64,000 nt of DNA. It comes from Macrophomina tecta (taxonomy: Eukaryota > Ascomycota > Dothideomycetes > Botryosphaeriales > Botryosphaeriaceae). The notes under the pieces are model-generated. The model saw only the letters and a program-made list of their open reading frames with translations. It did not search any database and was not told the DNA's origin. The stretch is from NCBI GenBank assembly GCA_024180945.1, contig JAKSGN010000002.1, forward strand, positions 1,612,001 to 1,676,000. Reading direction: 5' to 3'. This document shows, in pieces, positions 25,329 through 48,779 of this stretch (positions are counted from its first letter, which is position 1; each line of letters begins with the position of its first letter). Position numbers and translations under genes: made by a program.

Positions 25329-27360
25329 TCAGGCCTTGCAGAGTAGAAAGCGATGAGCTATGAAAAAATTGAAAACATTCAAGACCAAGATGGGTATGAT
25401 ATTCCACCACTCGAGGCCAAGCAAGATCCTGTAGACGATTGCTGCAATGAGTGCCGATTCCCATACTATCAACCATCCCCAGGCGAGGATGCGCATGTTG
25501 CGGTACTTGTTGTTCTTATGTGCCTTTGCGTCTCCAGAGGGAGCCCAGGCCAGGCCGTTCCCAAAAAGCCGGTCTTTGATGGCGTTGAGGTACGCGTACT
25601 GTTGGATTACCATGACGTATTGCACATTGAGGCCATATGACGCCTTTGCCCAAAATCGGAGGCAGATGACTCCGTACAAGATGCTAGGAACGGCGAAGGC
25701 GAGATTGTAAAACTTGAAAAATTCAGGCCGAACCCACAAGAGCAACATCCCTGGAAGCGGGTTGATGAAGATGCTAAGGGATAGCGCAGAGTAGTACATC
25801 ATGCCCGACAAATAACATACTTTCTGGATGAAAGAGAGCTTGGATCTCCAGAACTCTGGGTTTGTGAGGAGAGTTGTGGAACCCATGCACCAGCGCATTT
25901 GCTGGGAGAAAAACGCGCGGGGATTGTCAGGGCAGACGCCGGCAGCAAGACACAGAGGAACGTACTCGACCGTCCACCCACGGTCAACAGCCCCAAAACC
26001 AGTGTGGACATCTTCGGAATATCCGATCTCTGCAGTGCCGCCCACCTCAGCCAGAGCTTCACGACGGTACACGGCATTGCTGCCCACGCAGATCGAGGCC
26101 CCCCAACGGTTGCGGTTGACCTGAACAACGCGGTAGAAAAGCTCTTGACAGGCGCCGGCACCCTGCTCCACCCATGTGTGCTCAGGCAAAGTTCGGAAGA
26201 ACTGAGGAGACTGGACGATCGCACTTTTTGGGTTGCACAAGTGATGCGGGAGAAGCTCGCGGATAAAGTCCGGACGTGGGCAGAAGTCGGCATCGAAAAT
26301 GACGAAAAAGTCACCGGCAGTGCGTGAGAAGGCCCAACGGAGGTTGCCCGCTTTCTTCAACCTGGGTCGGTCATCCCGTACCATGTAGGTGAAGCCGTAC
26401 TGCTGAGCCAGCCTCTCAACAGACTCCATCGCACCGTCATCCAGAACGTACACGCGCAGCTTGTCTTTGGGATATTCCAGGGCCCGGATATGCTTGTACG
26501 TATTCTCCAGGATTTCCAAGGGCTCCTTGCAACAAGGCAGATATATGTCGACAGTGGGCGCATTCGCTTCTGTTATGGGATAGTCCTGGAGAAGCTTCTC
26601 GTGATTCTTGAAGTCCCAGTCTCTGCCGACGATGCCCACCAAGTAAGAGATGAAGAGATAAAGCTGTAGCAGGAATGCAAGGACTCCGAACCAGGCAAAG
26701 TAGACTGAGGACAGCACAAAAAGCCACATTCCAGCGGAAAGACTCAGGAAAGAGACACATCCGATGGCGTAGAGTGGTATCCGGTTCGTCTTCAGGTAAG
26801 AATACTTTTCTGTGTCGGTGGGACAGTAGGGAAGGACAAGCGGTGGCTCCACTCGCGGTGCGTAAATGGCAAAAAATTCCTCCTTGATGCGAAAAAATCC
26901 ACTTGTAGGCGGTTTTCGAATATCAGTACCGCTCTTCTCCTTCTCAGGTTCAACAACTGCAGGGGAGACCGCTCTGCTGATGTCAATTTCAGATCCTGAA
27001 GGGTCGGAGAAGGCAGAGGTAGGCGAAATTTCGGGGAGTGAAGGTTTTGGTACCTGCGTTTGTCAATGGGCTGCCTTTCTTAGCTACTGAGTAGTTACTT
27101 ACGAGATCGGGCGGACTGCTCTGCGCAGCTCCATTTTCTGTTATGCTCTCGATAGTTGCCCTCGTACACTCTCCCGCCTCACTAGAAGCTTCTGATCCAT
27201 GGATGGATTCGCTCGCTTCTGAACTTTCCCCTGAGGTGTTGGGTGATACGGGCATAGAGTCCAGACGTTGACGCTCCAAAGGAACCTTTCCCGGCATAGG
27301 CCCCGGGGATTCTCCATGCGAGGCCAAGCTGACCACGTTGCTGGATATCTGCTGAGCCAT
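25329..27360 (-). CDS. Processive family-2 glycosyltransferase (cellulose-synthase-like), membrane protein
   Basis: Such enzymes polymerise a sugar from a UDP-sugar and export the chain across the plasma membrane. Exon 1 is 27360-27103 and exon 2 is 27053-25329. The 49-bp intron (GTAAGT to CAG) is in phase and the protein has 660 residues. The first 150 residues are Ser/Glu-rich and cytosolic. Two membrane segments follow (about 180-230), then the GT-A catalytic domain. It has YVLDDGA (about 289-294), FDADF (about 339-343), GYSEDVHTG (about 430-438) and QQMRW (about 470-474): the D, DxD, ED and Q-x2-RW motifs of processive GT2 enzymes. Four or five membrane segments close the protein. The product polymer cannot be read from sequence. 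The divergent neighbour is a UDP-glucose dehydrogenase, pointing to UDP-sugar use. Confidence 0.93.
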
Positions 27361-29058
27361 CTAAAGTGATTTAGATCAACAGAAACACTGATTTGGAGGT
27401 AGTATTTAGATACCTCAAGCGGAAATGGAGCACTTGTGGAGGAAAGAGTTATTCTGCGCTTTCTCGGGGATAGATATCAGAGTAGCATCTCTCTTTCGTG
27501 ATAAATGTTTCGAAGGGTCGGAGTCAGCCTTCACTTAAGGCGTCATTTTGAGTGCGGGACAGAAGGGCATGTGTCCTCAAGTTTGGCTGGGTGCTTCATA
27601 TCTTTGCGGCTTCTCCGATTTTGCTTTCCTGTTTTTTACTCCGTTGCAGTTGATCGAAGGCTCATTCTGTTCATGCTCCGAGCGGCGCAATCTCCACTGC
27701 CTATTCCCTCTTCGTATTAGTTCAATATTGCGGTTCCTGTTGCTCTGTTCTTGACAACGTGGCCGAGCGAGCCAAGAGCGGGATCCGCAAGTGCTCGAAT
27801 CGCCCACCGATCGCATGATCTGAGAAGGTACCGCATACTCGGTAGCTGTTATAGGGCCCAGTATGTGATGCAAAGCCTGTGCGTGGTTCTTGCTGAGACT
27901 TTAACATCCGATTGGGTCGCTTGATCAACGCCACGTATTGTCACTTCTCCTCTTGTGCAATAGCACTCGACCTCGCCGTAACGACGTGACCGAGCTCAGT
28001 TCTTTTTTTTTTTTTTTCTTGAAAGCGCTGAGGAGACATAGATGCTAGTGGCGAATTAGCCTTAAGCTGGAAGAGCTGGGAGACGAACGGACGAAAGAAA
28101 CCTAACGATATACGTGCCCGATGATTTTCAGCTGTTTCTGCATGACAGGCCATGAATCGCGGTACGATCTCGCGTCCGATGGGACATCCGATGACACGCT
28201 CGCTTGTTAAATTCAGCCTTGACGAAGCATAGCACACGTGTGACTGATCTCGCCTGAGCCCCGTCAGCTGTGCGTAAGCAGAGCTGGGCAACCGCAAGGT
28301 GGGCCCGCGTATCGAAACCTATACAGAGCGAAGCGGCCCGATTCGCCCCACTACTCAAAAAGTCGCCCTTTAGGTCTCACTAATTGTGATTGGTTGTCCG
28401 TTTACTCAAATGCCTGGCCTATAGCTCCATTAATTGCGAGCCAAACGCCTCTACCGAGTACGGATCCATCGGCTATTCCAAAATCCGAGACATGCTCCCT
28501 TTTCAGCCAGTCAAATGGCGTGACGTCGGGTTGAGCGCCATGAACTTTGACAAATCTCGGCGAGGACAGTCTATTGAGTTGGCAAACAACCTCTTCTGCC
28601 GTTATTTTCCAATGGAAAACGGCTTTGTACTGCATTGACTAAAAATTTTATCCACCCGTCCTTTGACCGGCAATTCCGAAAGCATCGCGAAACCGAAGGG
28701 TGGAGATAAGGTTCCGTGGCAAAGAACAGCCAGAAAATTTTGAACGGACACATGGCCGCATCTGGCTGCGGAGGCTCGCATCGACGAGCTTGATTGAGTT
28801 CCGACAAGGAGTCTAGCACTGACGTGAGGATGGAGCCATCAGCCAATGGCTTCAGTCAGTCCCACAATCCCGGAACACCTTCCACCGTGATACCGCTGTG
28901 GAGGCGAGGATAGGATGGGTTTTTGGCGTGATATGCTGAGGATAAAAGGCTCTAGAGATCCGGAGCCAGAAAAACCTCTGAGCATGCGAAGCCTACTACT
29001 TGTTTCATGTCATTCGTTCCTTGACGCATCATCCATTCCACATCCTCACCTGCTCATC
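27361..29058. promoter_or_regulatory. Shared 1.7-kb divergent promoter region of GT2 and UDP-glucose dehydrogenase
   Basis: The two start codons point away from each other. The stretch has a T run at 28003-28018 and no convincing open frame. A TATA-like element for the dehydrogenase is listed separately. Confidence 0.6.
28941..28948 (+). promoter_or_regulatory. TATA-like box of UDP-glucose dehydrogenase gene
   Basis: GATAAAAG lies about 117 bp upstream of the ATG at 29059. Its position inside the longer open frame that begins at 28915 argues that 28915 is not the true start. Confidence 0.5.
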
Positions 29059-30828
29059 ATGAGTTCTTCACCGAGCAAAGATGATTACTATTTCTCTTCC
29101 ACTAGTGGAAGCTTTTGTTCATCCCCCGTCTCTGTTTCCACTCCCATAACACCTCCTGATCCAGAGACGTGTATGCTTCCGACCTCTGGTGGGAAAAAGC
29201 AACAGCCCGACTTCATTGTGCCGCACACTAAACGCCCAGTTCTCAGTGTTTGCTGTGTCGGTGCAGGGTTTGTGGGCGGTCCGACTGCGGCTATCATTGC
29301 ATACCACAACCGAAGCATCCAAGTCAACGTGGTGGACCTGGATGCAAGGAAGATCAGAAAGTGGAACTCCGCGCATCTTCCAGTGCACGAGCCCGGGCTC
29401 CAAGACGTAGTGCGCGTCGTAAGGGATGGGTGCGGGGAGGTTGGAGGGAAGGAACAGCGAAAACCTAACCTCATATTCTCCACAGACGTCATTGGTCACA
29501 TATCCTCCGCCGACATCATATTTCTCGCCGTGAACACGCCAACCAAAGAGCGTGGTCAAGGAGCCGGACGGGCCGCCGACCTGAGTGCCCTGGAAGCGGC
29601 TACGCGCTCTGTGGCGCTCGCGGCCAAACCCGGCGCCATCATTGTGGAGAAGAGCACCGTCCCGGTCCGGACGGCGGATGTGGTTCGCAGGACACTTGCC
29701 CTGCACCGCCCTCAGGAACACTTTGAGGTCTTGTCCAATCCGGAGTTTCTTGCCGAGGGCACAGCTGTGTCTGACCTCATGAATCCCGACCGAGTTCTCA
29801 TTGGCTCAGCTCCAACCATGTCTGGCGCGGCTGCTGCGGAGGTCCTGTCAAGTGTCTACGAAGCCTGGGTTCCTCGGGAGCGTATCTGCACCACGACGCT
29901 TTACAGTTCGGAATTGACAAAGCTCACCGCCAATGCAATGCTCGCCCAGCGCATCTCATCCATAAATTCCATCGCGGCCGTTTGTGAAGCAACTGGGGCT
30001 GATGTGCACGAGATCGCCCGAGTCGTGGGCATGGACCACCGCGTTGGTTCGCAGTTCCTCGGAGCGGGTGTGGGCTTCGGCGGATCCTGTTTCAAAAAAG
30101 ACATATCAAACCTGGTCTACATCGCAGAGTCTCTGCATCTTCCGGCGGTTGCCGCATATTGGGATCAGGTGCTGAAAATGAATGAGTGGCAACAAACGCG
30201 CTTTGCCGACCGCATCATCAACTGCCTCAACGGCTCCCTCCGCAGGAAGAAAGTCACCATCCTCGGCTATGCGTTCAAAGCAAACACCAATGACACAAGA
30301 GAGACCCCAGCCGTCGAGGTGATCCGCAAGCTGCTCCCAGAGTCGCCCAAGGAGATCGCCATCTACGACCCAGGATGCAACACTCTGGATGTCATGAACG
30401 GCCTTCAAGCAATTTTTGGTAGCGAGGCCGAACACATCGTCCCATACAGCGACCCTTACGCGGCGTGCTCAGGAGCGGCCGCCCTGGCAATTGTCACGGA
30501 ATGGGACCAGTTCCGGCTCGGGACCCAGAAGAAACAGGCTGCTGGCGGCCTCAAGGCAGCAATGCCGCAATTGATGCGCGCAGCCGTCGACCGCAATCTC
30601 CGCCCAGATCTTCCTTGCCCGGACGACTGCAATGATTGTCTCCAGGGATCTGTGCTGAAAGCTGCGCCTCAGAGCATTAGCACGTCGCAGCGCTTGGACT
30701 ACCGTCGCATCGCTGGCGCGATGCAAACGCCGAAGTGGATCTTCGACGGCCGTGGGGTGATCAATAGAAGCAGCCTGGAGAGATTGGAAGCTGGGTTTGT
30801 CTTGGAATCTGTCGGCGTCGGTAATTAA
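29059..30828 (+). CDS. UDP-glucose 6-dehydrogenase
   Basis: Oxidises UDP-glucose to UDP-glucuronate using two NAD+ in the cytosol. One uninterrupted exon encodes 589 residues. The Rossmann motif is VGAGFVGGPTAA (about residues 67-77), with the acidic end of strand 2 at VVDLDARKI. NTPTKE and GAIIVEKSTVPV follow. FLAEGTAVSDLMNPDRVLIG and ELTKLTANAMLAQRISSIN come next. The catalytic cysteine is in GVGFGGSCFKKD (about residue 343), followed by the UDP-binding C-terminal block with GYAFKANTNDTRETPA. The frame is open upstream to ATG 28915, but that extension contains a TATA-like sequence and the ATG at 29059 follows a C-rich leader, so 29059 is preferred. It is divergent from the GT2 gene. A retrotransposon begins 88 bp after its stop codon. 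Confidence 0.95.
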   Translation: MSSSPSKDDYYFSSTSGSFCSSPVSVSTPITPPDPETCMLPTSGGKKQQPDFIVPHTKRPVLSVCCVGAGFVGGPTAAIIAYHNRSIQVNVVDLDARKIRKWNSAHLPVHEPGLQDVVRVVRDGCGEVGGKEQRKPNLIFSTDVIGHISSADIIFLAVNTPTKERGQGAGRAADLSALEAATRSVALAAKPGAIIVEKSTVPVRTADVVRRTLALHRPQEHFEVLSNPEFLAEGTAVSDLMNPDRVLIGSAPTMSGAAAAEVLSSVYEAWVPRERICTTTLYSSELTKLTANAMLAQRISSINSIAAVCEATGADVHEIARVVGMDHRVGSQFLGAGVGFGGSCFKKDISNLVYIAESLHLPAVAAYWDQVLKMNEWQQTRFADRIINCLNGSLRRKKVTILGYAFKANTNDTRETPAVEVIRKLLPESPKEIAIYDPGCNTLDVMNGLQAIFGSEAEHIVPYSDPYAACSGAAALAIVTEWDQFRLGTQKKQAAGGLKAAMPQLMRAAVDRNLRPDLPCPDDCNDCLQGSVLKAAPQSISTSQRLDYRRIAGAMQTPKWIFDGRGVINRSSLERLEAGFVLESVGVGN

Positions 30829-31156: not shown

Positions 31157-31380
31157 GGGAGCGCCAAGACTACCCCACTTCTAAGCTCTTTGCTGATCAA
31201 CTCGTCTACTCAAACGAGTACTCTTTACTGACACGCAACTGCTGTCAGAACTGCGGCTTCTGTCCGGTTACAGGCTACGGCGACTGAACCAAATACTCTC
31301 AAACCGGAGCCACGCTGGCTACCACCACTACTCGGATCCAACTGGACCAACGACTTCGACAATTACTACTCACTGACAAC

Positions 31381-34300
31381 ATGGGAGACTCTACTAAGTC
31401 CCACATTCTCACCAAGTCTTCGGACTGGAATCACTGGCTATTCTTAGTGAAAGGAAGAGCTCAGAACACTGACATCTGGGGCCTCGTTGATCCTTCACTA
31501 ACAACCAAACCCGAGGGCACTCCAAAGCCCACGAAACCAACCATCGAGGGCACTGTTACTGCTGACAAGAAGCTCACCTACGACTATGAGATGAGCAACT
31601 ACCGCGCTGACTATGCACTCTACGAGAAACAACAAAAGGCACTTGCTGATCTTGCAACCTACATTCAGGACTCAATTGCTACAAACCTACTGCCCTACAT
31701 CAGCAACACCGATTCTGACAATCATCCCTGGACCTACTTGACGACGCTCAAAGCCAAGCTTGCACCAACCAATGAAGCCACCGACCTAGAGCTTGAGCAG
31801 CAATACAACCAGCTCAAGCGAGGACCAGTCAACCAGAACATCGAGAGATGGCTTCAATCCTGGGAAGAAGTCTACACCAAGGCAAAACAACGAGACATTC
31901 CTCAAGTTAAAGACGACCGACCAGTTAGAGATTTCCTCCTCTCACTTCGAGGCATCGACTCCACCTACTCTCAGATGGAACTGCATATCTTACGAGGCCA
32001 GACTGACAAGCCATCTCTTCACAAAGCTGTTGAGGACTATCGACAACACCTACGGATCGAAAATCTCGAGAAACCCTCTAAGTCTTCGAAACACTCAGCC
32101 TTCCCAGCCACTTTCAAGGGCAAGGAACAGGAAAATAACGACAAGCCACCTTGTATCTGTGGTCTCAATCACTGGTATAAGGAATGCTTCTACTTGAACG
32201 AGGATATACGGCCAAAGCACTGGAAACCGAATAAGGCTGCTCAAACACGTGTCAACGAAAGACTCAAGGATCCAAAAATCAAAGCAAAAGTTGACTATGC
32301 ACTAAATCGAGAAAGAGAAAGACAACCTGGATTCCAATCCACTACTACTGCCAACAGTCAAAGCAAATCTCCTTCAATCGAAGTCGCCTCATTCTCAGTC
32401 ATTAGTCACTCTACAAGAAGAGCCAATACCTCTCTCCAATCATCCTGGATTCTAGACTCTGGAACCGATCATCACATCTGCAACAGCTTTATGCAAGACA
32501 GATTCACACAAACCAGAGCTGCTGAACCAGATGAATACCTCACCTGCGGAGAAACCACTGCACCAATCACGGCCTACGGAACAGTTACCGTGAATGTCAA
32601 GACACCATCTGGAAAGGGCCATATTACTCTCCAAGACGTTGCAATGTCCCCATCTTTCATGGCCAATCTTATATCACTCGACAAAGCTCTCGAAGCAGGA
32701 ATTGACTGGAATCCAAGGACTGGCACTCTCAGCAAAAACAACAACACCTTTTGCTTCACTGAACGACACAATGGTCATTTTTATCTCGAGCGCAACGTAG
32801 CAACTCTCCAAGCTCACTCTTCACTTATTGCATTACAACCAACTGCTTTCGCAACTAAAGCCGCACAGATCACCAACTGGCACCAAATCCTTGGCCACGC
32901 TAGCCAGGAAACTCTTCAACACCTCGAAGAATCCACCAAAGGCACCAGCATCACTCCATCTGATCAACCACTTCAGCACTGTGAGACCTGCGCTCTATCA
33001 AAGGCTCACCGTCTTATCTCGCGATTACCAGACAAGGAAGAAGAACCGTCACAACCCTTCTCGCGCGTCACGTTCGACCTTCTCCAACTTACGCCAGCTT
33101 ACAACGGAGATAGATGGACAGCCCATTTAGCCTGCTCTTCATCAAATTTCATCCTCCCATTCACGTATCGACACAAATCAGACACCGCTGAACTGGCCAT
33201 CTACGGACTCAAAATCATCAAGATACGCTACCATGGCAAAGTTATCTTCTTCAGAACTGATGGAGAAACAACACTCGGAAATACCTTTCTCTCTTATCTT
33301 ATGGACCATGGAATCACACTTGAAACTTCAGCTCCAGCAACACCCGAGCAAAACGGACACTCTGAACGCTCAGGGGGTGTACTTCTCACCAAAGCACGAG
33401 CCATGCGAATTGGAGCCAACCTCCCAGAACGACTTTGGCCTGAAACCATCAGAGCCGCCGCCTATATCCACAACAGGACTCCACTCAAGAAACTCAGCTG
33501 GATCACTCCTTTCGAGAGAGTCACTGGCAATAAACCAAATCTCTCTCACCTTAAGGCCTATGGATGCAAAGCCTACTCTCTACGCAAGGACCTCCCACGC
33601 ACGCACAAGCTTGCTGAACGAGCTTTTATTGGATATCTCGTTGGATACGACTCAACCAACATCTTCCGCATCTGGATTCCAAGCCAGGATAAGGTAATAA
33701 GGACCAGAGACGTCACCTTTGACGAAACGAGCTTCTACGACCCTACCGAAACTGATATCGGCAAAATTCTTGAAAAAGAAGTAATTGAGACCCTCAATAC
33801 TCCTAATCTACCATCAATCTACGGTCTCATGCCTCAGGAAGAATCCGAATCCTCATCCCACTACGAAGGAACAAACGACGCTCAAGCAACCATTCAATCT
33901 CAAGCTGAGAAAGACTCGTCTACCCGTCAATTACCAACACCTTCAGAATCAGTGGAACCCCAAATACAAGCTCTCGTGCCACAAGAAGCTATGGAGCAAC
34001 AAGAACAAGCACAAGAACAAACTGAGCAACGACTTGGACCTCTGCTACCAGCTCAGTATGATACTCCACCACAACCAGGAGCTGCTCCAGGCAACAGAGC
34101 ACCAAGAGGAGCAGATATTGCAGCCGATATCACTGAAGAAACGATCATTCCTGAGAAAAGCTCAAGAAGTTCAAGAAACCAGAATCCAAATTACAGCAAT
34201 GATCCTTTTAAGAAGCCTCGAAAACCACGGAAGGAAGCATACGCTGCAACTCTTGCTCAAACTCAAGTATATCCAAAGTCAACCTTCTACAACGCCTTTT

Positions 34301-35934
34301 CAGCTGCAATTCACACTCCAAGGCCGACAACTACACTCCATCGAGATAATCTGCCACCAGAACCAAAGAATTTTGAGGAACTCCTCAATCACCCATTCGG
34401 AGACAGATTTATGGACGCACTTCTCGAAGAAATCAAGAAACTTGAGCAAATCCGAACCTGGAAACAAGCTCTAGCTACTCAGGCACACGCAGCGAAGAAA
34501 CAGATTCTTCCACTCACCTGGGTATTCAAATACAAGTTCGACGAAGAAGGCTATCTTATCAAGTTCAAAGCGCGACTCTGCGTACGAGGAGACCTTCAAT
34601 CGACTGCTCAGGATACCTACGCTGCCACACTCGCTGCACGTATCTTCAGAGGACTTATGGCAATCATGGCCGCTTTCGATCTTGAATCAAGGCAATACGA
34701 TGTCATCAATGCGTATCCACACGTGCCAATCGATGAAGAAACCTACTGTAAACCACCACCCGGCATGAAAATTAAGGACGGACTCGTTCTCTTACTCTTA
34801 CGAGCACTCTATGGACTTAAGCAGTCGCCAGCTCTCTGGCAAAAGCACTTGTCAACGACACTTCAAAATCTCGGCCTTACTGAAGTGCCAGAAGCTCCCT
34901 GCCTCTTCACGAACGAACATATGATCCTATTCTTCTTTGTAGACGATATCGTCATCATCTATCATAAGGATCACACCGCCTATGTCGACGACTTTCAGCG
35001 CAAGCTCTTCGAAATCTACGAGATGAGATATCTCGGGGAAATTCAGTGGTTTCTAGCCATTAGGATTATCCGCAACCGGAACGAACGCAAACTCTGGCTT
35101 TGCCAAGACTCATACATCTCGAAACTTACTGCCAAATTCAATGTCAAAGAAGACTCGAAGCGCTCAGTTCCTCTCCCACCTGACGAACCTATCACTCAGA
35201 ATCCTGAACAAGCTACAGAGCAAGATATCTACGTCTACCAACAGAAAGTCGGATCAATCAACTACGCTGCAGTCCACACTAGACCTGATATCGCTCACGC
35301 AGCATCACGACTCTCTGAACACTTGCAGAACCCATCAGCTCAGCACCTTCATCTGGCTCAACGAGTTCTCGAGTATCTGGCAAGTACTCGAAACTACGCT
35401 CTTACTTTCTCAGGCTTTACTCAGTCTACCAAAGATCTCTTTATTGCCTCCAGCGATGCCTCATTTGCTTCAGATATTGACACCAGAAAGAGCATTCAAG
35501 GTTTTCTCTTTCGACTCTTTGGAGGACCTATCGACTGGAAAGCAGCTAAGCAACGCACTGTCACTACGAGCAGCACTGAAGCCGAATTACTCGCACTCTC
35601 AGCCACCGCCAAGGAAACTATTTGGTGGGAAAACCTCTTCAAAGCAATCGATTTCTCTACTGGACATCAGACAAAGATTCAGTGTGACAACACTCAGACA
35701 ATTCGCCTACTTGACGAGGAAACTTATAAGCTCATCACAAAACTTCGTCATGTTCAAATCCACAGCCACTGGCTACGTCAGGAAGTACAAGAAGGCAACA
35801 TTTCAATCTCTTGGACTCCCACTGCAGAGACAATTGCAGATGGACTCACTAAACCTCTCAACAAACAGAAACATCAATACTTTCTTCAACAAATTGGACT
35901 CGAAGACATCACTACTAAATTGCAAGATAACTAA
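31381..35934 (+). CDS. Gag-Pol polyprotein of copia-type retrotransposon
   Basis: One frame of 1517 codons with the copia order Gag, protease, integrase, reverse transcriptase, RNase H. Gag has a variant zinc knuckle, CICGLNHWYKEC (about residue 258). The protease site is WILDSGTDHH (about 358). The integrase zinc site is WHQILGHAS with HCETCALSK (about 500-535). The integrase acids fall in VTFDLL, FFRTDGE and NGHSERS (about 565, 624, 660). Reverse transcriptase has KFKARLCVRGD, YDVINAYPHVPID, LYGLKQSPALW and FFVDDIVI (about 1060-1190). RNase H has SSDASFASD, STEAELLAL and CDNTQT (about 1358-1440). No ribosomal frameshift separates Gag from Pol. The ATG at 31381 follows a 236-base leader after the LTR. 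Confidence 0.96.
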   Translation: MGDSTKSHILTKSSDWNHWLFLVKGRAQNTDIWGLVDPSLTTKPEGTPKPTKPTIEGTVTADKKLTYDYEMSNYRADYALYEKQQKALADLATYIQDSIATNLLPYISNTDSDNHPWTYLTTLKAKLAPTNEATDLELEQQYNQLKRGPVNQNIERWLQSWEEVYTKAKQRDIPQVKDDRPVRDFLLSLRGIDSTYSQMELHILRGQTDKPSLHKAVEDYRQHLRIENLEKPSKSSKHSAFPATFKGKEQENNDKPPCICGLNHWYKECFYLNEDIRPKHWKPNKAAQTRVNERLKDPKIKAKVDYALNRERERQPGFQSTTTANSQSKSPSIEVASFSVISHSTRRANTSLQSSWILDSGTDHHICNSFMQDRFTQTRAAEPDEYLTCGETTAPITAYGTVTVNVKTPSGKGHITLQDVAMSPSFMANLISLDKALEAGIDWNPRTGTLSKNNNTFCFTERHNGHFYLERNVATLQAHSSLIALQPTAFATKAAQITNWHQILGHASQETLQHLEESTKGTSITPSDQPLQHCETCALSKAHRLISRLPDKEEEPSQPFSRVTFDLLQLTPAYNGDRWTAHLACSSSNFILPFTYRHKSDTAELAIYGLKIIKIRYHGKVIFFRTDGETTLGNTFLSYLMDHGITLETSAPATPEQNGHSERSGGVLLTKARAMRIGANLPERLWPETIRAAAYIHNRTPLKKLSWITPFERVTGNKPNLSHLKAYGCKAYSLRKDLPRTHKLAERAFIGYLVGYDSTNIFRIWIPSQDKVIRTRDVTFDETSFYDPTETDIGKILEKEVIETLNTPNLPSIYGLMPQEESESSSHYEGTNDAQATIQSQAEKDSSTRQLPTPSESVEPQIQALVPQEAMEQQEQAQEQTEQRLGPLLPAQYDTPPQPGAAPGNRAPRGADIAADITEETIIPEKSSRSSRNQNPNYSNDPFKKPRKPRKEAYAATLAQTQVYPKSTFYNAFSAAIHTPRPTTTLHRDNLPPEPKNFEELLNHPFGDRFMDALLEEIKKLEQIRTWKQALATQAHAAKKQILPLTWVFKYKFDEEGYLIKFKARLCVRGDLQSTAQDTYAATLAARIFRGLMAIMAAFDLESRQYDVINAYPHVPIDEETYCKPPPGMKIKDGLVLLLLRALYGLKQSPALWQKHLSTTLQNLGLTEVPEAPCLFTNEHMILFFFVDDIVIIYHKDHTAYVDDFQRKLFEIYEMRYLGEIQWFLAIRIIRNRNERKLWLCQDSYISKLTAKFNVKEDSKRSVPLPPDEPITQNPEQATEQDIYVYQQKVGSINYAAVHTRPDIAHAASRLSEHLQNPSAQHLHLAQRVLEYLASTRNYALTFSGFTQSTKDLFIASSDASFASDIDTRKSIQGFLFRLFGGPIDWKAAKQRTVTTSSTEAELLALSATAKETIWWENLFKAIDFSTGHQTKIQCDNTQTIRLLDEETYKLITKLRHVQIHSHWLRQEVQEGNISISWTPTAETIADGLTKPLNKQKHQYFLQQIGLEDITTKLQDN

Positions 35935-42899: not shown

Positions 42900-45800
42900 A
42901 TGCTTTTCTCGAACACTCGTACAACTTTTTCTCTTGCTCTGCTGACCGTTTCACATGGTGTCGAGGCCGGTTTCAATGCCGCAGCCCGGGACAATGTCGC
43001 CGTATACTGGGGTTGGTCTACTTTCATGAACGTGTACCACTTGACACTGACGATCTTCCAGGACAAAATTCTTATGGAGCAAGCAGCGGTAGCTTGGCTC
43101 AACAGAGGTTATCGTCCTATTGTGCAGGTACGGATGGCCCTTACTCACATGACAAAATAAATACTAATAGGTTGGACAGACCCCAATATCGATGTACGCA
43201 GACTTTTGCATGCTCTTATCTCCAAGCTGACTCTCTGCTAGATAATACCACTGGCGTTTATGACGGTCATCACCGACTCCTACGGTCAGCCTCAGATAAA
43301 CTTTGCCAATCAAGGCAATAAGTGTACCGTCTTTTCTGGAACTGCCTTGTTCTACTGCTCCGAACTCGAGTAGGTCTTTTGAGCATCCTGTCCTCTTCGA
43401 TGCTGAAATATTTTCCAGAGAGGACATTACCACCTGCCAACAGACATATGGCAAAACTATCACCCTTTCCATTGGCGGCGCAACGTACAGTGAAGGTGGC
43501 TTTAGCTCTACTTCCGAGGCTCAGACCGCTGCTGAGCTGGTCTGGGCCACTTTTGGTCCCAACCAAAACAAGAGCATCACTTCTGATGGTACTAAAATCT
43601 ACCGCCCCTTTGGAGATGCGTCCGTGGACGGCTTCGATTTCGACTTTGAGTCAACTGTTTCCAACATGGCGCCGTTCGCTCAGGCCTTGCGAAGCCTCAT
43701 GGATGCAACAGAAGCCACAGACGGTAAGCACCGTCTCTTGACAGCAGCACCCCAGTGCCCTTTCCCGGACGCTGCGGACGATCAGTTCCTCTCTGGTGCG
43801 TTGGCTGTTAAGATGGATGCTGTCTTCGTCCAATTCTACAACAACTACTGCGGCGTGCAGAGTTTCGTCTCCGGTTCTTCGACCCAGAATAATTTCAACT
43901 TCGAAGCGTGGGACAAGTGGGCAAAGTCAAGTAAAAATCCAGCAGTCAAAGTGAGTGACATAACTCAAAGCCTCTTTGTTCCAGGGGCTGACCGATCCAG
44001 GTTTTTCTAGGTGTGCCAGCATCTTCTACTGCTGCAGGATCCGGATACCTCTCTACGTCTGCGCTGAAGCCGATCATTGACTATTGTATGACTTTTCCAA
44101 GCTTTGGAGGCGTCATGATGTGGGACGTCTCACAAGCATATGCGAACTCGGGATTTCTGGCTGCGATAAAGGTGCGCATGGCCTCCGGCGCAGGTGACGC
44201 ATCAACTTCAAGCTCTTCCAGCATCAAAAGCCAGGCTGCTGCCTTGACTACTCCTTATAGCTCAAGCTCGTCATCGGTAGTGATGGGATTGATATCGAGC
44301 GCCATCAGCACGCCGAGCCTCGATACGCGAGCCACGTCGAGCGACACTTCCACCAGTTCGTCAGAGCAAACAACGGCAAAAGCATGTACACCTCGAGCGA
44401 ACAGGACTTCGACTGCTTCCTCTACTTCGACTGCTTCCTCTATGAGTATACCTGCCGTGTTGAACAATTCAAGCGGGATAATTTATACAAGCCAGATGGT
44501 ATCCAGCACGCCTACAAACAGCTCTGCCGCTACTTTTTCTACCGCAATCGCGGTTCTCTCTTCCAATGGAACTTTCACCAACTGGAATACCTCCCAGATC
44601 AATTCAGGCAGCCTCACGAGCAGTCCGGTCCGAAGCCCTGCAGGATACAACCTCACCGCTGTACCGACGCCGTATTCTACTACCACGAACGTGTCACTAT
44701 TTACTACACCTTTGGCATTACCATCACGCTATAGGCCTACTTTCAACGTCTCCACTACGGGTTTAAGCCTTCCCAGCTTCAACCTTTCCACAGGATTGCC
44801 AAACCGGATCAGCCTCAACTTTTCCACCGGATTTTCGAGCCCAACCAGTTTCAACAATGTTACTCGAGATCCCATATCGACAGCTGTGTCATCCAGCGCC
44901 ATCCTCCGTTCTACAGCTCAGTTGAGTGGGGCCGAATTAGCAGTGAGCTCATCTGGCATATACCTGAACGCGACAGCAACCATGACTCCTCGAACCAGCG
45001 TGTCAGCGGTTTCGACTGATGGCCACTCTGAAATCATGGAACCTTCTAGATCAGCGGCACCGACTGCTTCGTTCACTCTGATAGCAGCCTACAACAGTTC
45101 ATCAACTGCTCCGAACAGATTCACCTTTTTTGGCAACACGACGTTACCTGCCGCTTCAGCTACACCGAAACCAGGAAGGCCATCTTCGACATGGAGTACG
45201 CTTAGCGAAAATAGCTCAGCTCTTTCATCAAATATCTCAAAATCCCACAATACCACGTACACAGATACAGCCCCGCATACTGTGACAACCACAGAATCAA
45301 CACGCAATGCAGTCCCTCCAAGTTCATCCGCAATCGTAACCTTCGGCTCGTCAGGCGTACTTGGCACCTCGTCCTATAGAGGGACCTCAACTGAGGGCGG
45401 TAGGAGCTCGGAAGTTCTGTTGACGCAGAACTCTACTGGGACTTGGACTACTTCGAATCCCCCCATGCTGTTTTCCAGCTATGCCATTACCGCTACGGCT
45501 TATTCGACATTCGCGGGTGTTTCTGGAACCAATGGCACTGTTGGTGCATCTCAAGCTCTCAGCCCCACCTTAATGGTATCTATGCAGACTTCCGCGTCAG
45601 CAAAGGCTGCTGGGGCCTCAACAGGATCAAGTGACCTACCGAAGCCGTCCCTTGAAAGTGAACCTCATAAAGTGACGGTTTCGACAAATCCTGGGAGTAG
45701 TGGTGTGTCATTTTCCACGGTGTCTTCTGTAGGACTCGCTGTGACAAGTGGCTCCACGTGGTCAGGAGTGTCCTCAAATACGACCACCAGTGCCACGCAC

Positions 45801-48779
45801 TCTATCAGGACGTCCGGTGTCCCTGAGATTCCTATCAGCACCACTGGCGCTATCAAGGGAGCCAATAGCTCAACACCATCCGGCGGAATCTTCCAGACTG
45901 GTGTGGTATCCAACACATTGGGGATCTCGACCTCCCTCGTAACTGCAACCTCTTCAAGTGTCATCAGCAATTCCGCACGGATATCAGTAATTACCAGCAT
46001 AGTCACAGTCACGGAACATGCACCAGGCGTTTGCTCTAATACATATAGCCTATCTGCCGTAGCGACTATGAGCAGCGAGAGATATATCGCTACCGAATCT
46101 CCAGCGACCACCGCAGCCAACACACACTCCAGCACCCTGGAAATTCCAGGAAATGCGCAGACTTCCGTTTATACTTCGAGCAAGGCAATCCCATCCACGA
46201 GCAGCACATGGCCCGGCACCCAGGTGATCTCTATCGAAAGCCAGGTCACACCTACGACTCAGACTCCTGTCAGTACACCAAGCACAACGGCTCCGCCCAC
46301 CACCTCAGCCCCGGTCACGTTAGAGCCATATCCGCAAGTGACCGTCCAGCCTCCATGGCCCATTCCTCCAGTGGCAAACACAACTTCAGCAGTTGGTGAG
46401 TAAAGCAACAGAAAGTGTCGCGGACTCTCTCAACAAAACACTGATAATCTCTCTTCCAGTTTCCTCACCGATCCCGGTCAGCACCTGTGCCAGTAACTAC
46501 ACCTACTCCGCAGTACGCCTCTGCAATGGTAAAGACTGCAACAATAGCATCGCCTCCACGAACATCTTCGCCGCCACCTCCGACGATCCCCCTCCCTCCA
46601 ATATCCGCCGGCGCTCCGACCACCCGGTCTCCCGCTCCGCCATCTCCGCCGATACGACCGGGCCACTGCATACCAACAAGTTCTACGCCAACTTCTTCCT
46701 CTCGGAGCAGGCCTCAGGCACATGGACGCACCCATACTCCCTCAGCTGGGCGTCCGACAGCAGCGGCGCAGCGCAGAGCCGCGGCCTCGCCATCTCACAC
46801 ATCGACCGCTCCCAGTTCGTCTTCGGCGACACGACCGCGCACAACTCATCCCGCTACTTCTTCGCGCCGCTCGGGATCCAGTCTCTCATCCTCTCCGCTG
46901 GCGAGCTATCCTCCTCCACCACTCTCCGCGTCTCCGCCCCGACCGCCATGTCCGCCAACATAACCCTCGCGGCGGACGGCGCCTCCCTCCCGCTCATCAC
47001 CTTCCCTCTCGTGCAGGGCATGGCGTACGTGACGGGCGTATACCGCAATGCCACGCCGCTGGTCGAGAGCAGCGTCTACTTCCGCAGCATCGAGGGGCCG
47101 GTCAAGCTTCACCCCAGCAGCAATAACAACAGCGCAACCATCAAGTACCGCGCCCTCCTTGAAGACGGCAGAACCTGGCTGATCTACGCCTCGCCCGCGC
47201 CCGGCTCCGGCTACCCAGTCCTCGCCCTTGCCAACACCACGCGCCTTTCCGGCCCCAGCGGATGGAACGGCGCGATCAGCGTGGCCAAGCTCCCAGTCAA
47301 CGGCACCGCTGACGACGAGGCCATCTACGACAGCGCCGCGGGCGTCTACCCCGTGGGCGCCGAGGTCTTCGGCAGCGCATCTGGCAGTACGGGCACGTAC
47401 GGCTTCAACTTCACCAGGGGCGGATACGCCACTTCCAGCGCCAGCCCGCTCCTCATGTTCGCGCTGCCCCACCACGCGGCGAGCTTCGACGCAAGCACGG
47501 CCGGCGGCAGGACGAGCGTAACGCTGGCAACGACGACAAAGGGCTACGCAGTCGCGTACCGGGGTGACGCGTGGACGATGCGCGAGGCGCTGGCGGCAGA
47601 CCTGGGCTTCGCGCCGTACTCGGCAGCGAAGGGGCAGAGCGTGACGGCGCTGTCGGCGGGCGCGGCGTGCGCCGTCATCGACGCAGCGGCGGCGGAGCTG
47701 GCGCAGGACGTGGGCGCGCAGACGGCGCTTGACTCAATGTACTTCAGCGGCAAGGCGCTGGCCAAGTTCGCGGCCGTCGTGTACGCGGCCAACGACCTGG
47801 GCGGGAGTGCGGAGCTGGCGGCAGAGGGGCTGAAGAAGCTGAAGGCCGCGTTCGCCGTGTTTGTGGATAGCAGGCAGCCAAATCCGCTGGTGTACGACGA
47901 GGTGTGGGGAGGCGTGGTCTCCAACGCCGGGTATGCGGATGCGAATGCCGATTTTGGGAACTCGTACTACAACGACCATCACTTCCATTATGGATATTTG
48001 TGAGTTCCACCTCTTCTCCCTGCTGGGATGTTTTGACTGACATGCCGCACAGCATCTACACAGCCGCGGTCATCGGTTATCTCGACCCGACCTGGCTGGC
48101 TGCCGGTACCAACAAAGCCTGGACCAACATGCTTGCCCGCGACTTCGCCAGCCCCGTCCAAAACAGCCACTATCCCTCCAGCCGCAGCTTCGACTGGTTC
48201 CACGGGCATAGCTGGGCTAAAGGGCTCTTCTCCTCGGGCGACGGCAAGGACCAGGAATCCTCGTCAGAGGACGCCTTCGCGTCGTACGCGCTCAAGATGT
48301 GGGGCAAAGTGACGGGCGACGCCGCCATGGAGGCGCGTGGCGCCCTGATGCTCGCAATACAGGCGCGCAGCTTTCAGTCGTACTTCCTGATGACGCGCGA
48401 CAACACGATCCAGCCGCGCGAGATCATCAACAACAAAGTGTCCGGCGTGCTCTTCGAGAACAAGGTCGACTGGGCCACCTACTTCGGCGACAAGTGGTAT
48501 TACAAGGAAGGCATCCACATGATTCCTGTGCATGTCCCTTCGGCGCTCATCCGCACCGCTGAGTTCGTGGCCGAGGAGTACGACACTTACATGTCGGGTA
48601 GACGCATCGACGAGGCCGAGGGCGGCTGGCGCGGCATCTTGCAGGCGAACCTAGCGCTTGTCGATGCGAAGGAGGCGTATGACTATTTCGCGAGCGCCAA
48701 CTTCAGCACTGAATATCTGGACGGCGGAGCGAGCAGAACGTGGTATCTCGCCTACACTGCCGCTCTGGCGGGTTTGTGA
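42900..48779 (+). CDS. Secreted GH18 chitinase fused through a Ser/Thr-rich linker to a GH81 endo-1,3-beta-glucanase
   Basis: Eight exons were read: 42900-43011, 43062-43127, 43171-43193, 43242-43369, 43419-43950, 44001-46395, 46460-47999 and 48053-48779. They sum to 5523 bases (1840 residues) with correct phase throughout. A signal peptide (about 1-23) precedes a class III chitinase domain to about residue 350. Its signatures are NVAVYWGQNSYGA, ITLSIGGATYSEGGF, DGFDFDFE with catalytic Glu at about 187, MDAVFVQFYNNYCG, and VFLGVPAS with the late WDVSQAY. Residues 355-1085 are Ser/Thr-rich with many N-glycosylation sites and contain no stop. Intron 6 (GTGAGT to CAG) joins phase 1 to phase 1. 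The GH81 domain follows (about 1135-1840) with TNKFYANFFLSEQ, YYNDHHFHYGYF, SFDWFHGHSWAKG, SSEDAFASYALKMWG and a C-terminal GGASRTWYLAY. Both catalytic domains look complete. Two separately transcribed genes remain possible, but no second promoter or start is evident. Confidence 0.88.

Follow-up and report, generated by a model that had tools for sequence, protein, structure and literature searches.

An in-frame gene model joining a GH18 chitinase to a GH81 endo-beta-1,3-glucanase in Macrophomina tecta

In a 64,000-nucleotide (nt) window of the genome of the plant-infecting fungus Macrophomina tecta (assembly GCA_024180945.1, contig JAKSGN010000002.1, positions 1,612,001 to 1,676,000 of the forward strand; positions below are those of the window), we analyzed a gene model in which a class III GH18 chitinase, a long serine/threonine (Ser/Thr)-rich region and a GH81 endo-beta-1,3-glucanase follow one another (Table 1). 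The initial annotation had placed these three parts in one reading frame, with exon lengths that sum to a multiple of three. As an observation this gene model is confirmed: the eight exons add up to 5514 nt, which is divisible by three, and they encode 1837 codons with the sole stop at the very end. The predicted chain of 1837 amino acids (aa) has a computed mass of ~191.5 kDa before processing. All seven introns are of the GT-AG type and measure 48 to 64 nt, and a YTRAY-like branch site is present in six of them (the one without is intron 43370-43418). The borders ascribed to the intron between the two enzymatic halves (intron 6) were also found as described. The chain opens with a signal-peptide-like start, a call based on Kyte-Doolittle hydrophobicity (mean 1.5 over 11 residues) and on the alignment with the mature Chit33 chain, which begins at aa 23.

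Table 1. Features of the GH18-GH81 gene model, in window positions.
Feature	Position	Strand	Basis or detail
Whole gene model, 8 exons	42900..48779	+	Splice model and translation
Exons 1-4	42900-43011, 43062-43127, 43180-43193, 43242-43369	+	Splice model
Exons 5-8	43419-43950, 44001-46395, 46460-47999, 48053-48779	+	Splice model
Signal-peptide-like start MLFSNTRTTFSLALLTVSHGVEA, aa 1-23	42900..42968	+	Hydrophobicity; start of Chit33 alignment
GH18 class III chitinase domain, ~aa 23-343, exons 1-6	42966..44177	+	PF00704, 7zya alignment
Ser/Thr-rich linker, aa 344-1082, wholly in exon 6	44178..46395	+	Ser/Thr content, residue shuffling (sequons), Markov simulations (open frame)
3' end of exon 6, like the pre-intron N-terminal exon of GH81 paralog L023 (VC.N ... 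TLExYPQVTxxxPW)	46029..46395	+	Local alignment
Intron 6	46396..46459	+	Phase 1, 64 nt, GTGAGT...CTTCCAG
GH81 endo-beta-1,3-glucanase part, exons 7 and 8	46460..48776	+	PF03639, PF17652; 4k35, 5xbz
Intron 7, within the GH81 part	48000..48052	+	Splice model
Candidate GH81 catalytic residues D1588, D1643, E1664, E1668	47974, 48192, 48255, 48267	+	Alignment and spacing

The N-terminal half is a predicted Chit33-type class III GH18 endochitinase. When aa 1-355 were scanned alone, PF00704 (GH18) matched aa 33-295 with 68.9 bits, against a curated cut-off of 29.6, and the nearest PDB chain was Endochitinase 33 (Chit33, 7zya), which scored 307 bits over aa 23-338 and which, together with 7zy9, we take to be a Trichoderma enzyme. 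The catalytic DxxDxDxE motif is kept as DGFDFDFE at aa 177-184 (D177, D180, D182 and E184; 43627-43650) in alignment with 7zya. The solved Chit33 chain comprises 303 residues in one domain, to which the Macrophomina protein adds a linker and a GH81 part. The other PDB matches were more distant, namely an ENDOCHITINASE (2uy2, presumably ScCTS1) at 179 bits and AfChiA1 at 138 bits. Both enzymes resemble the present chain in that the class III domain is followed by Ser/Thr-rich sequence, and ChiA carries a glycosylphosphatidylinositol (GPI) anchor. The initial annotation had referred to class III chitinases of this Ser/Thr-tailed, often GPI-anchored type; the Ser/Thr-rich region is indeed there, but the closest type is Chit33, and the chain ends as TWYLAYTAALAGL inside the GH81 domain, with no GPI-type tail when judged by eye. 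Of note, hmmscan of the full 1837-aa chain left GH18 unreported, whereas scans of aa 1-450 and aa 1-600 reported it, with scores of 66-69 bits in shorter pieces of the chain. A full-chain profile scan can therefore miss a class III GH18 domain followed by a long linker, and GH18 fusions with long Ser/Thr linkers may be under-counted in domain catalogues.

The C-terminal half contains a complete GH81 domain, as had been claimed: PF03639 (GH81 N-terminal) covers aa 1137-1470 with 368.2 bits (profile positions 1-322 of 323) and PF17652 (GH81 C-terminal) covers aa 1481-1828 with 507.2 bits (profile positions 3-349 of 349). This half scored ~324 bits against the PDB chains 4k35 and 5xbz, which we assume to be from Rhizomucor. 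For ScEng2, the accessible text of PMC3627985 gives D518, D588, E609 and E613 as catalytic residues. Here, D1643, E1664 and E1668 have the same spacing (21 and 4) as D588, E609 and E613, and the alignment suggests that D1588 is probably the counterpart of D518, although the gap to the next residue is 55 instead of 70. Both GH81 Pfam domains are shared with AfENGL1, ScEng1/Eng2, SpEng1, 4k35 and 5xbz. AfENGL1, with 974 aa, is described as having one GH81 domain besides a signal peptide (PMC3627985, accessible part), while the Macrophomina chain has a chitinase in front of its GH81 part. Since exon 7 has no in-frame ATG upstream of the conserved TNKFYAN block, the GH81 part requires an upstream exon.

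Exon 6 supplies the sequence between the two domains. The stop-free Ser/Thr-rich region, initially put at ~730 residues, measured 739 residues, of which 39% are Ser or Thr. It holds 23 N-glycosylation sequons, which is above chance: over 2000 shuffles of its residues the mean was 13.0, and the highest count was 22. Exon 6 is open over all of its 798 codons, whereas no open run exceeded 338 in 1000 first-order Markov simulations; stops number 35, 21, 60, 46 and 13 in its five other frames. When the linker was compared with its own genome, it matched only itself.

We compared the gene with its paralogs in the same genome, where profile searches gave three GH81 matches and 17 GH18 matches, some of the latter being exons of one gene. 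Five of the 17 were taken as class III by the profile region that they matched, and the comparison covers these five; it thus involved the other two GH81 loci and the other four class III GH18 loci, in stretches of 6-10 kb (the stretch of GH81 paralog L024 ends inside the gene). The GH18 query matched neither of the two GH81 stretches and the GH81 query matched none of the four GH18 stretches, so no fusion was found at these loci. Identity to the fusion ranged from 55 to 61% over 243-304 aa for the GH18 paralogs and from 47 to 61% over 106-634 aa for the GH81 paralogs. The only class III paralog compared with the PDB (L028, a piece of 250 aa) was also nearest to Chit33, at 195 bits. In an unspliced reading, the frames of all four class III paralogs stop within ~35 residues of the domain end. 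The GH81 paralog L023 is a stand-alone gene with its own start and a Ser/Thr-rich first exon.

This last paralog bears on the origin of the junction. Exon 6 gives the best evidence that the fusion is real, as it holds the GH18 C-terminus, the linker and then a GH81-type 3' segment (TLEPYPQVT..PW). In L023, TTLELYPQVTTGVPWHRI closes the exon that precedes the catalytic part, and a 170-nt intron of phase 1 comes next; in the fusion, exon 6 closes with VTLEPYPQVTVQPPWPIPPVANTTSA(V), and the phase-1 intron 6 of 64 nt follows. Local alignment of the linker with the L023 pre-intron region scored 101, a value reached by none of 500 shuffles (best, 100). Because the end of exon 6 matches the pre-intron exon of L023 and the intron has the same phase, intron 6 is probably an old intron of GH81 itself. 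Third-position G+C steps up from 0.504 in exon 6 to 0.855 in exon 7 and stands at 0.814 in exon 8. Among the paralogs it is 0.54 and 0.62 in the two exons of L023 and 0.83 in the GH18 paralog L026, which means that this genome has genes with either kind of value. The step at intron 6 is consistent with halves of different histories, without dating their meeting.

The initial annotation had noted that class III chitinases and GH81 glucanases are normally separate fungal proteins. The fused combination is not new: a 2017 survey of 218 fungal genomes and 2,284 GH18 proteins had catalogued GH18-GH81 once, as Macph1|905 of Macrophomina phaseolina MS6, and its accessible text describes this protein in one sentence as a potential chitinase/endo-beta-1,3-glucanase (PMC5428031). 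The architecture is therefore already in print as a prediction from the same genus, and it is rare. Macph1|905, a domain-scan entry in the accessible part of that source, agrees with the gene described here in both catalytic families, in the GH18-first order and in genus. Given the shared genus, Macph1|905 and the present fusion are very probably one gene or orthologues. In the literature that we searched, GH18-GH81 appeared as a named string in a single paper, and no functional work on a GH18-GH81 protein was found, with the proviso that subscription papers were poorly covered. In its accessible text, the 2012 M. phaseolina genome paper mentions GH81 once and does not mention GH18, chitinase or glucanase; that of the 2019 M. 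phaseolina genome paper mentions none of GH81, GH18 and chitinase. Altogether, the sequence, the homology to either side of intron 6 and the earlier catalogue entry from the same genus lend the in-frame fusion good support. An accident of assembly or gene prediction was considered and appears unlikely, given the unbroken, sequon-rich exon 6, the homology flanking intron 6 and the earlier Macrophomina listing.

We consider it likely that a single Macrophomina gene encodes a secreted wall hydrolase with two heads, in which a Chit33-type GH18 domain, a Ser/Thr- and sequon-rich linker and a GH81 domain form one chain. Most likely, a class III chitinase gene became joined to a GH81 gene, upstream of its Ser/Thr-rich N-terminal exon and in frame with it, and the GH81 gene's own intron would still lie between that exon and the catalytic part. 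The gene would be transcribed as a single messenger RNA (mRNA) and its product secreted as one glycosylated chain, whose linker could let each head reach its own polymer. Such an enzyme might loosen walls where chitin and glucan meet, as at septa, at branching points, during autolysis or in the walls of other fungi. In most fungi, the load on the wall is borne mainly by two polymers, chitin and beta-1,3-glucan, and in yeast the chitinase Cts1 acts in the same process of septum dissolution as the glucanase Eng1. In Saccharomyces cerevisiae, Schizosaccharomyces pombe and Candida albicans, GH81 enzymes of the Eng1 type contribute to cell separation or septum dissolution (PMC3627985, accessible part). 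The fused activities would fit a role in which chitin and glucan are cut at the same site by coupled or co-delivered enzymes. Enzymes that cut both polymers in one chain are very rare, with one GH18-GH81 among 2,284 GH18 proteins (PMC5428031, accessible part). A natural fusion suggests that in filamentous fungi, too, the two activities coincide in place and time; such a chain would offer a natural design for a wall-lytic enzyme. Taken as a whole, the interpretation in the initial annotation is partly supported: the fusion itself well, while the loosening of chitin and glucan together by one enzyme is a hypothesis.

Several observations weigh against one fused product with such a role. Codon usage lends no backing to the linker frame, as the coding frame scored -0.114 and another plus frame -0.102; this score was uninformative and was left unused. 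The margin of the L023 alignment over its shuffles is thin and stems mostly from the YPQV motif, and in L024 the motif YPQVLGYPWP lies in a frame that runs into GH81 without the intron in question. The G+C step across 46395-46460 could also fit two genes, and the linker contains an in-frame ATG at 44496 with a moderately hydrophobic stretch behind it (1.85, higher than the 1.5 at the start of the model). Retention of intron 6 would bring in a stop two codons on and leave a chain of 1084 aa with GH18 and linker only, and a candidate splice at 44172-44280 would give a GH18-only chain of ~341 aa ending in AAIK. Finally, the Aspergillus fumigatus engl1 mutant had no phenotype according to the accessible text of PMC3627985, which weakens a morphogenetic role.

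The ATG and the G+C step could be taken together to mean two overlapping or adjacent genes, a chitinase that ends in exon 6 alongside a GH81 gene that has a separate promoter and starts in the linker (for example at ATG 44496), and the stand-alone L023, whose first exon is Ser/Thr-rich and which has a start of its own, offers a precedent for the second of these. However, exon 6 has no stop with which to end the chitinase, the starts of three paralogs scored 2.2-2.4 on the hydrophobicity measure that gave 1.85 here, and the same combination has been predicted in another Macrophomina genome; we regard the two-gene explanation as very improbable. Somewhat less improbable, though still doubtful, is a single gene with mixed products, most of which would be GH18-only chitinase made by the early splice or by keeping intron 6, with the full fusion as a minor form. 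Both GH18-only routes are present in the sequence, and the four class III paralogs end soon past their domain. On the other hand, exon 6 contains no more candidate hidden introns than expected by chance (four, compared with a mean of 3.3 and a maximum of 14 in 200 simulations), and retention is possible for any short intron. A more speculative extension, to which we give little credence, is that splicing sets the balance between the two products of a gene of the Macrophomina lineage: keeping intron 6 or splicing early would give chitinase alone, removing intron 6 would give the chitinase-glucanase chain, and the amount of glucan cutting that goes with chitin cutting would vary accordingly.

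A further alternative concerns the protein rather than the gene. One chain might be translated and its linker then cleaved after secretion, so that the two enzymes would work apart and the fusion would only equalize their amounts. The long Ser/Thr-rich linker is in favor of this, and so is A. fumigatus ENGL1, whose accessible description gives 974 aa by gene and a 74 kDa glycosylated protein as isolated, a difference that suggests trimming (PMC3627985). Heavy glycosylation, if present, would shield the linker. Cleavage of this kind is compatible with a single fused gene, and we hold it to be unlikely, albeit the least unlikely of the alternatives discussed. A pair of GH81 proteins, 727 and 968 aa long, has been described from Alternaria (PMC13305652, accessible part).

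As to the wider assembly and the neighborhood of the gene, the MpSyk marker of Macrophomina phaseolina (primers from PMC6934584) agrees with the genus: in the 54.1 Mb assembly its forward primer has a single exact site and no further site at one or two mismatches, and its reverse primer lies on the opposite strand with one mismatch, so that the pair spans 163 bp. By this marker the genome belongs to M. phaseolina or a near relative in Macrophomina; published M. phaseolina assemblies, at 48.9-51.3 Mb, are slightly smaller. The assembly gave no match to 5.8S rRNA, so the ribosomal DNA array seems to be missing from it, and the lack of any site for the ITS primers MpKFI and MpKRI therefore carries no weight. 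Elsewhere in the window, a minus-strand frame for a GT2/cellulose-synthase-like glycosyltransferase (25332-27062) adjoins a plus-strand frame for UDP-glucose dehydrogenase (28891-30825), a pair that could make a uronic-acid polysaccharide. About 7 kb upstream of the fusion gene, the plus strand carries a Ty1/copia-like element (31288-35931) whose long frame matches RVT_2, gag_pre-integrs and SH3_retrovirus.

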